Below are positions 30,655-32,662 of a stretch of 40,964 nt of DNA, piece after piece. The notes beneath the pieces were generated by a model that made no database searches, was not told where the DNA came from, and worked only from the letters and a program-made list of their open reading frames with translations. Where the stretch lies: positions 1 to 40,964 of IMG/VR virus record IMGVR_UViG_3300037040_000002. The stretch is one strand, 5' to 3'. Positions within the stretch are counted from its first letter, which is position 1. Each line of letters begins with the position of its first letter. Made by a program: the position numbers and the translations under genes. Source of the stretch: a virus.

Positions 30655-30683
30655 CCTCGGGGCTTCGGCCCCGGGGATTTTTT
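30655..30683 (+). terminator. Rho-independent terminator
   Basis: A 9-bp stem CCTCGGGGC / GCCCCGGGG (one G-T pair) closes on TTCG and is followed by ATTTTTT. Confidence 0.92.
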
Positions 30684-30698
30684 GTGCTCGGAGGACCT

Positions 30699-31676
30699 AT
30701 GGCACACGGCGACAATATGGTGGCCCGGCTCAACTTGGCGACGGGCAACCCGACCACCACGACGTTCCTGTTACGGTTGGAATTTTGGTCCCGGCTGTCA
30801 AAGACGGTCGAGGACGACGCCCGTTGGGTTACGAATGACCAAGCCGATTGGAGCGTCGAGTGCGGGCTCACGCACCGGCAGATACGGCGCATCTTCGATC
30901 AGGCCAAGAAGGACAATCTGATCGCCACGCGGTTCGCTTGGTTCGGCGGACGCCGATGTTTGCAGACCGCTCTAACCGACCGCGCGCGGCGCATTTTGAC
31001 GGGGGCACTTGCCCTTAAAGAGGCAGACCACTTGCCCTTAAAAGGGCAGACCACCTGCCCGTTAAAGGGCAGTTCTTATATACATGGAGAAAAGCATGGA
31101 GAAACACACGGAGAGAAACAGCACCCCGCCGTTGGCGGACTGCCGTATTGCGAACCAGAAAAAGAAAAATGCGGAGTGAAGGGGAAGAATGAAAACATGA
31201 AATACGGTGGAAGCATGAAAGGGGTTGAAGGAGCTGTTAAGGCTCAAAAGGTCCTTCACAAGCCCGACAGCGTTCAAGGCTTGGTGAGCATATGGTGCAA
31301 CCACATGGCCGAGATCGAGGGCCATGTGATCGTGGCTCTCCCGAAGCACAAGGGTCAGCTGGCGAACTTTTTGAAGGCTTGTCCGCCCCTTCGGGCCGAG
31401 ACCGCCTTGCAGACGATCCTCGACAACTGGAAGGCCGTTTGCGCCGCCATTCAGGACGTGGCCGGCGTCGAGACCAATCCCTACAAGCCGAGCTTGAATT
31501 ATCTCTTGAAGTATAGCGACATTGCGATAAGCTATGCGCTCTCCAACAAGCCCTCCGGTCCGGTTCCGCAGCAGGAGGTTGCGCCGGCATCGAATATGCA
31601 ATTAACTGCAAAAGATGACCCCGACGAGAAGGCGGCGCAGGCCGCCATCCTCGGCATCAAGTGGGAGAAGAAATGA
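30699..31676 (+). CDS. Replication initiator-like protein carrying the origin
   Basis: The start is placed at the ATG at 30699 with GGAGG five bases upstream, not the GTG at 30684. The 325-residue product has an N-terminal winged-helix-like part (WVTNDQADWSVECGLTHRQIRRIF). A low-complexity linker (residues about 103-175, including EKHGETHGEKQ) follows, then a C-terminal helical domain (VQGLVSIWCNHMAE...). The linker DNA contains three 23-bp iterons. This matches lambda O: DNA-binding domain, origin inside the gene, and a C-terminal part that recruits the helicase complex. It is followed by a loader-like gene and DnaB-like helicase. Assignment is by architecture and context. Confidence 0.7.
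   Translation: MAHGDNMVARLNLATGNPTTTTFLLRLEFWSRLSKTVEDDARWVTNDQADWSVECGLTHRQIRRIFDQAKKDNLIATRFAWFGGRRCLQTALTDRARRILTGALALKEADHLPLKGQTTCPLKGSSYIHGEKHGETHGEKQHPAVGGLPYCEPEKEKCGVKGKNENMKYGGSMKGVEGAVKAQKVLHKPDSVQGLVSIWCNHMAEIEGHVIVALPKHKGQLANFLKACPPLRAETALQTILDNWKAVCAAIQDVAGVETNPYKPSLNYLLKYSDIAISYALSNKPSGPVPQQEVAPASNMQLTAKDDPDEKAAQAAILGIKWEKK
31006..31074 (+). repeat. Three 23-bp iterons, candidate replication origin
   Basis: Contiguous repeats start at 31006, 31029 and 31052, exactly 23 bp apart. Each has a 16-bp imperfect palindrome: TGCCCTTAAAGAGGCA, TGCCCTTAAAAGGGCA and TGCCCGTTAAAGGGCA. They lie within the linker of the initiator gene. An A/purine-rich tract follows (about 31071-31230), a plausible unwinding element. 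Confidence 0.85.
31596..31611. promoter_or_regulatory. Palindromic motif (ATGCAATTAACTGCAA)
   Basis: Within the 3' part of the initiator gene, 61 bases before the next start codon. Confidence 0.55.
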
Positions 31677-32221
31677 CGTTCAACCCATACGCGGAAGGCG
31701 CGCTGATCGAGGAGCGCCACGCCCCGATCGTCAAGCGCCTCGATTTCTTCGCCAAGGACGCCGGCATCCAGCCGCATTGGATCGCCAAGCCGTCCAAGCC
31801 GTTCCTGATCAAGCCCGAGATCGACTACCTGATTGACTATCGCAAGATGGCCTTGCAGGGGGTTCATGGCCTGTGTCTGGTCCGCTCGTCATCGGACGCC
31901 GATCCGAACACGCATATGGCGGCGCTGGCGGCGGCGCTGGTGCGCAATTTCATCCGGGCGCGGGTGTTCACTCTCGGGCAGGTCTTGGACGACGTAGCGG
32001 CCTCTGGGCCTCCTCAAGCCGATTGCTTGTTGATCCCGAACTTTTTCGAGGACAGCTTGGCCAAATGGCGCGTCGGCGCGCTTTACGATCTGATGATGCA
32101 GCGCCAGTTCGAGGGCAACCAAACGATCGTGTTCGTGCCCGGCATGGCCGCGCTCAAATCGAGCTACGGCGAGGAGCTCACGCGCTTCGTCAAGACCTAT
32201 TACCACACCGTCGCGATCTGA
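31673..32221 (+). CDS. DnaC-like helicase loader with degenerate P-loop (putative)
   Basis: This 182-residue protein overlaps the initiator stop by ATGA and has a GGGAG site. The layout follows DnaC/IstB-type loaders: a strand (VHGLCLV), a position where the P-loop should be (RSSSDADPNTHMAALAAAL instead of GxxGTGKTHLA), ADCLLIPNFFED where Walker B should be, WRVGALYDLMMQRQF as the following helix, and QTIVFVPG for the sensor strand. The Walker A glycines and lysine are missing, so ATP binding is doubtful. Its position between initiator and DnaB-like helicase supports a loading or adaptor role. This is inference from pattern and context. Confidence 0.55.
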   Translation: MTFNPYAEGALIEERHAPIVKRLDFFAKDAGIQPHWIAKPSKPFLIKPEIDYLIDYRKMALQGVHGLCLVRSSSDADPNTHMAALAAALVRNFIRARVFTLGQVLDDVAASGPPQADCLLIPNFFEDSLAKWRVGALYDLMMQRQFEGNQTIVFVPGMAALKSSYGEELTRFVKTYYHTVAI

Positions 32222-32230
32222 GGGGGACAC

Positions 32231-32662
32231 ATGAGCAAGACAGGCCCGCGCGGCCCGCATCATGGTGGGAGCGGGACGAGAGCCTACCGCTCTTGGCAGA
32301 ACATGAACACCCGTTGCCTCAACCCCAAGAACGAGAAGTTTAAGTCCTACGGCGGACGGGGCATCAAGGTCTGTGACCGTTGGATGATCTTCGCCAATTT
32401 CCTTGAAGACATGGGTCAACCGCCACCGGGAATGACTTTGGAGCGCAAGGACGTAAACGGCAATTACGAGCTTTCGAACTGCAAGTGGGCGACCGCTAAA
32501 GAGCAATGCAACAATCGTCAGAAGTCCGTCGTGCTTAACGGGGTTCGCATGTCGATGGCCGAGGCTTCACGTCTTCACGGAAAGTCCTCAGGCTACATCT
32601 CCACGCGCTTATACATGGGTCACAAGCTCGACGATGTTCTGACACAACTGGCGGGGGTTTAG
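32231..32662 (+). CDS. HNH-like/HTH free-standing endonuclease-like protein, copy 2
   Basis: This 143-residue paralogue carries the shared W..MNTRC, YGGRGIKVCDRW, F.NFLEDMG, LERKDVNGNYELSNCKWAT blocks. Its HTH-like end is AEASRLHGKSSGYISTRLY. It lies between the loader-like and helicase genes, nine bases after one and one base before the other. The ribosome site GGGGG is before the ATG. The nuclease His is replaced by Arg as in its relatives. Confidence 0.7.
   Translation: MSKTGPRGPHHGGSGTRAYRSWQNMNTRCLNPKNEKFKSYGGRGIKVCDRWMIFANFLEDMGQPPPGMTLERKDVNGNYELSNCKWATAKEQCNNRQKSVVLNGVRMSMAEASRLHGKSSGYISTRLYMGHKLDDVLTQLAGV

Follow-up and report, generated by a model that had tools for sequence, protein, structure and literature searches.

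The window analysed here is a 40,964-bp IMG/VR virus fragment in which a gene for a putative replication initiator is followed by several other replication genes. The features discussed below are, in order along the window:

30690-30694, + strand: Shine-Dalgarno sequence GGAGG of the initiator gene (sequence)
30699-31676, + strand: initiator gene, 325 aa (PHROG matches, structure model)
31010-31025, no strand: iteron 1, TGCCCTTAAAGAGGCA, an imperfect palindrome (repeat and palindrome analysis, codon-shuffle test)
31033-31048, no strand: iteron 2, TGCCCTTAAAAGGGCA (repeat and palindrome analysis, comparison with relatives)
31056-31071, no strand: iteron 3, TGCCCGTTAAAGGGCA (repeat and palindrome analysis, comparison with relatives)
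31074-31120, + strand: predicted DNA-unwinding element, TATATACA followed by three 12-bp repeats of GGAGA type
31083-31238, + strand: purine/A-rich stretch continuing the predicted unwinding region (composition and stability)
31673-32221, + strand: helicase-loader-like protein (DnaC/IstB AAA+ fold without Walker A or B)
32664-33926, + strand: DnaB-like replicative helicase (PF03796, 3.8e-22)
34916-35587, + strand: RNase H of the conserved replication block (domain/PHROG matches, shared gene order)
35888-37024, + strand: DnaG-type primase of the conserved replication block (domain/PHROG matches, shared gene order)

The ATG of the initiator gene at 30699 is supported by the GGAGG at 30690, nine bases upstream. 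The encoded protein matches PHROG 6493 (DnaD-like loader, 2e-5) and PHROG 428 (replication initiation, 4e-4), and in its AlphaFold model a winged helix predicted with confidence (aa 4-108) is joined by a disordered linker (aa 109-185) to a C-terminal domain made of helices (aa 192-283). A fold search likened the winged helix to MarR/ArsR-type regulators, and sequence searches of the PDB returned nothing decisive. The disordered linker is encoded by the iteron and purine-rich DNA, in keeping with the initial annotation, which had placed the repeats in a low-complexity linker of the putative initiator. Directly upstream of the Shine-Dalgarno sequence lies a strong intrinsic terminator (30655-30676; 9-bp stem, TTCG loop, T6), which leaves no room for a promoter before the initiator and thus suggests control by read-through or antitermination; we counted this terminator against the origin reading developed below.

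The protein encoded at 31673-32221 has a DnaC-like fold, its model (AlphaFold pLDDT 93.8) matching IstB, DnaC and DnaBC in Foldseek with E values of 5e-5 to 3e-4. Walker A and B motifs are absent from all 15 aligned members of this loader family, which carry in their place an invariant RNFIRAR, and this Walker-less DnaC-fold loader is another starting point for work on ATP-independent helicase loading. The DnaC fold and the PF03796 match agree with the earlier assignment of loader-like and DnaB-like genes after the initiator, to which must be added an HNH gene between the two. Two related HNH endonuclease genes (32231-32662 and 33934-34374; 53% identical over 109 aa) in fact flank DnaB. Since nine relatives have loader and DnaB side by side, with a gap of -45 to 16 nt, the first HNH gene is probably an intruding, homing-type element.

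About 310 bp inside the initiator gene, within the linker-coding DNA, three contiguous 23-bp repeats occupy 31006-31028, 31029-31051 and 31052-31074 (spacing 23, 23), each containing one 16-bp palindrome. We compared them with 1000 permutations of synonymous codons that kept the protein unchanged. Identity at lag 23 is 0.85, against a shuffle mean of 0.54 and maximum of 0.72 (0/1000 reach the observed value), and the three-palindrome score is 19/24, against a null maximum of 18 in 1000 shuffles. Across the whole window, 31006-31074 is the top three-copy tandem array for periods of 20-26, scoring 0.87 to the runner-up's 0.66. As 23 is not divisible by 3, the copies lie in different reading frames and selection for a peptide repeat cannot explain them. 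The three contiguous palindromic repeats described in the initial annotation are thus real; it had called every palindrome imperfect, a description that fits the first.

The array is followed by DNA of a different character. The segment TCTTATATACATGGAGAAAAGCATGGAGAAACACACGGAGAG, which starts at 31074, is purine-rich with a 12-bp period; a 12-bp tandem repeat spans 31082-31120, and GGAGA recurs at 31086, 31098 and 31110 within the predicted unwinding element. The same element contains, at 31077-31082, the only TATATA in the 41-kb window, and no 20-bp segment of the 41 kb has a less stable duplex than the one at 31073 except a segment at 31496. Over about 160 bp after the array the GC content is 41-54%, compared with 61%, and the A-skew is about +0.49, bearing out the A/purine-rich stretch noted earlier. 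The element is written in rare AT-rich synonymous codons. Both phased palindromes in coding sequence beyond protein constraint and an adjacent low-stability, AT-rich element, as in an iteron origin within an initiator gene, are therefore present at this site.

To place the site in an evolutionary context we examined the DLP group as well as seventeen distant relatives in which the neighbouring genes are the same as in the window. A tblastn search with the initiator found three distant homologues among annotated phages (RcZahn, RHph_Y1_11 and RHph_TM16; 20-26% identity), all with the gene order ATPase, hypothetical, initiator, loader, DnaB, hypothetical, RNase H, primase, SSB-like or hypothetical, helicase; the Stenotrophomonas DLP/Summit phages were reached via RcZahn. 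Searching viral contigs with the initiator itself returned nothing, or the window's near-identical contig alone. A scan with the loader gene, independent of the initiator, yielded 14 distinct further contigs, several of about 100 kb, and in 14/14 an initiator-like ORF immediately precedes the loader. RcZahn has three GGTGCAGATATGCACC-type palindromes at spacings of 23 and 23, the middle one degenerate, followed by CTCTATATATAAGGGAGATACG with 12-bp repeats. DLP and Summit have 23-bp repeats based on TTGGnCCCAAAGGGACCAA; the DLP phages did not pass a rigid 16/17-bp palindrome test, owing to a longer dyad with a 3-bp centre, and their 23-bp direct repeat stands. Tandem repeats with dyads lie at the same place in 11 of the 14 loader-found contigs, nearly every palindrome being different, as the following examples illustrate:

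L094: GGTGGGACYCAAGTCC, 24 bp spacing
L098: GTGTCTnnAGACAC, 24 bp spacing
L100: CCCGCAAATCTGCGGG, 23 bp spacing
L102: GAGACTAACGATAGTCTC, 23 bp spacing
L107: GAGTCTCACATTGGAGACTC, 24 bp spacing
L106: GTCCCTGGAGGGAC, 33 bp spacing

Spacing in most relatives is thus 22-24 bp, with 33 found once. In that contig (L106:3956-4996) the 33-bp spacing is about one helical turn more than 23-24 bp, so that rotational phase is kept. The main irregularity is presented by L095, L103, L104, RHph_Y1_11 and RHph_TM16, which have no clear palindromic iterons and retain the downstream purine-type element. In the wider survey of initiators described below, most phages tested, including P22 and lambda, had iterons at 22-24 bp that outscored codon shuffles; those of phiLdb, D'Alembert and a Vibrio phage were marginal or not significant.

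For the window, codon shuffling at lag 12 gave no significant result by itself (p=0.34), and we therefore relied on a held-out matrix and a synonymous null to assess the downstream element. It was aligned by hand in nine members, and each was scored by a matrix to which only the remaining eight contributed. The window site ranked 1 of 81,882 positions; the sites of RcZahn, Y1_11, L095, L096 and L098 took rank 1 too, L094 and L107 ranked 2 and L103 ranked 8. The nine-member matrix did not pick out the element in TM16, L104, L100 and other further members, so the TATATACA/GGAGA element is graded rather than uniform. When codons were resampled from each genome's own usage, the DNA of the element proved conserved beyond the protein in 8/9 members (p=0.006 for the window, 0.013 to 5e-5 for the others), L107 showing no such DNA-level conservation. 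Across a wider set of 33 initiators, including those of Staphylococcus, Listeria, Geobacillus, Acinetobacter, Pseudomonas and Erwinia phages, paired RGAKW words 12 bp apart occur in 16/33, with none on the opposite strand; their 73-fold enrichment over flanking DNA is descriptive only, as the pattern was picked after some of those sequences had been seen.

The winged helix of the window protein is homologous to that of the Pantoea phage AH07-type initiators (profile comparison, E=6e-11), a family (PHROG 428/6493) of enterobacterial prophages with iterons at exactly 23 bp followed, as in the window, by 12-bp repeats (ACAGAGATTACA in the AH07-type). It differs from the window in its C-terminal domain, its five iterons and its gene neighbours. 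Among 80 viral loci of this type (L012-L091), 65 distinct proteins have a clear iteron class, in which all five iterons together are TTGC or TTGT, with a few degenerate positions. Residues 66-67, where the recognition helix begins, track this class in 65/65 proteins (S/P-D versus A/G/T/E-K). Segments 81-95 and 96-108, which lie between the recognition helix and the iterons, can be identical across opposite classes. L048 and L074, whose classes differ, show 7 differences in the first 108 residues, including SD to EK. A tree of the C-terminal domain requires 14 changes of iteron class, at least 3 of them forced by well-supported branches; in these prophages C-terminal domains are freely shuffled against the winged-helix-plus-iteron cassette. 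This co-variation belongs to the AH07-type family rather than to the window's own, in which the equivalent residues would, by profile alignment, be H59-R60. It makes origin specificity, and the switching of all iterons together with two recognition-helix residues, directly testable in laboratory prophages.

Origins inside initiator genes have precedents in lambda and Stx O (PMC7466680, PMC5043065) and in P22/L gene 18, where each initiator has its own iterons (PMC8022706). In lambda, O dimers occupy the iterons and a 40-bp AT-rich stretch opens (PMC5043065, PMC7466680). Like these systems, the window has palindromic iterons in mid-gene, then an A/T- and purine-rich element, with helicase-recruitment genes next. 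Unlike lambda, whose iterons are spaced 20, 24 and 23 bp, it has a regular 23-bp spacing, 12-bp repeats in the unwinding element and its own DnaB and DnaC-fold loader in place of lambda P. The protein itself had been described as not visibly related to lambda O, and this held in a direct test: its profile compared with O gave E=0.11 and a probability of 0.5%, and there is no Phage_rep_O Pfam match. The winged helix does connect to broader O-like PHROGs through relatives, L102 matching PHROGs 678 and 9773.

The lambda plan invoked in the initial annotation is an apt comparison, and the staphylococcal RepA_N/pPR9 replicons are equally close. The 319-aa Rep of pSK41 binds four Rep boxes inside the rep gene through an N-terminal winged helix; its ori-encoded linker is dispensable, and its essential C-terminal domain contacts primase (PMC5703833). 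In pPR9 a phage-type HTH_36 N-terminal domain and ori are joined to the pSK41 C-terminal domain, and the plasmid replicates (PMC5703833). The window protein resembles these Reps in length (~320 aa), N-terminal winged helix and central in-gene repeats that encode the linker, and its model has the same succession of winged-helix N-terminal domain, ori-encoded linker and helical C-terminal domain (compared with PMC5703833). Two members of its family match HTH_36. By sequence, no PF06970 domain or other RepA_N Pfam match was found; 4pql and 4pt7 are among the fold-search matches, but the similarity to the RepA N-terminal domain is weak and common to general winged-helix regulators. The host group and the helicase/loader genes also differ from those of RepA_N plasmids. 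By analogy, then, the window protein would work like lambda O and RepA_N while belonging to neither family by sequence, and the site appears to fit a known kind, the in-gene iteron origin of lambda, P22 and pSK41/pPR9.

Taken together, the array kept in relatives, the unwinding-type element, the domain architecture, the adjoining DnaC-fold loader and DnaB genes and, from the related AH07-type family, the co-variation of iterons with recognition-helix residues argue that 31006-31120 (extending to about 31240) is very probably a theta-type replication origin lying within the gene of its initiator, as had been proposed. Iteron binding, melting and a start of replication at the site are steps that we infer. 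The winged helix of the 325-aa protein would bind the three palindromic iterons, probably as dimers, at a spacing of 23 bp or about 2.2 helical turns. The resulting complex would strain and open the adjoining TATATACA and 12-bp purine repeats, and the DnaC-like, Walker-less loader may then put the phage DnaB on the opened strand, with primase next. The GC-skew check that accompanied the original proposal revealed no turn that could inform on the site, whether in the window or in RcZahn, RHph_Y1_11 and DLP5, since almost all genes point in one direction. As the contig is a fragment, there may be further origins elsewhere.

Several other functions could be imagined for the repeats. Palindromic sites would suit a dimeric regulator, and the resemblance of the initiator domain to MarR/ArsR-type proteins invites the idea that the repeats are operators through which it regulates the replication operon from within its own gene, with no origin role. 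We consider this unlikely, as operators are expected at a promoter rather than ~310 bp into a gene, and here three to five phased copies precede a conserved low-stability element, with loader and DnaB genes next in an arrangement common to lambda, P22 and pSK41. It is very improbable that the repeats act as RNA hairpins that govern translation or termination ahead of the loader and helicase genes. As RNA the region does fold better than shuffled versions (z=-3.8 in the window, -4.7 in RcZahn), but any tandem DNA palindrome would do so; iteron 3 with its T tract also has a terminator-like score. A spacing fixed at 22-24 bp (in L106 33, longer by about one turn), together with the tie of iteron sequence to recognition-helix residues, points to a protein on duplex DNA.

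Repeats at the protein level, in a low-complexity linker and with no DNA function, are strongly disfavoured. The linker is indeed disordered in the model, and the 24-bp versions in relatives yield in-frame peptide repeats, but the 23-bp period of the window is out of frame, protein-preserving codon shuffles destroy the signal (0/1000) and the element after the array relies on rare, AT-rich synonymous codons. We give almost no credence to a partition or packaging site instead of an origin; iteron-like arrays serve as centromeres too, and the relatives encode ParB-like proteins, but their ParB-like genes lie far off in the genomes, whereas the array tracks the gene beside loader and DnaB and has an unwinding-type element attached.

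Beyond this locus, the least expected part of the finding is that the 12-bp element, of which we found no description in the open-licence literature, is common to phages across phyla, which raises the question of what reads it. We tentatively suggest, as a conjecture rather likelier to fail than to hold, that DnaD/HTH_36-type initiators from Staphylococcus/Listeria to E. coli/Rhodobacter phages have in common a two-part in-gene origin code, in which fast-changing ~23-bp iterons set identity and a slow single-strand element (TATA plus 12-bp RGAGA repeats) is recognised by a conserved factor, for instance the helicase loader, SSB or the initiator itself. In practical terms, the findings suggest a simple rule by which origins might be located from sequence alone in many phages: palindromes in the initiator linker, spaced 22-24 bp, with 12-bp purine repeats after them. 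No origin is marked for RcZahn, RHph_Y1_11 or the Delepquintavirus/DLP phages in their GenBank annotation or in the DLP3 paper, and the present analysis offers a candidate for this group of roughly 100-kb phages. RcZahn (MW677529) also carries another tandem array, of three 22-bp copies, between genes at about 82243-82310.
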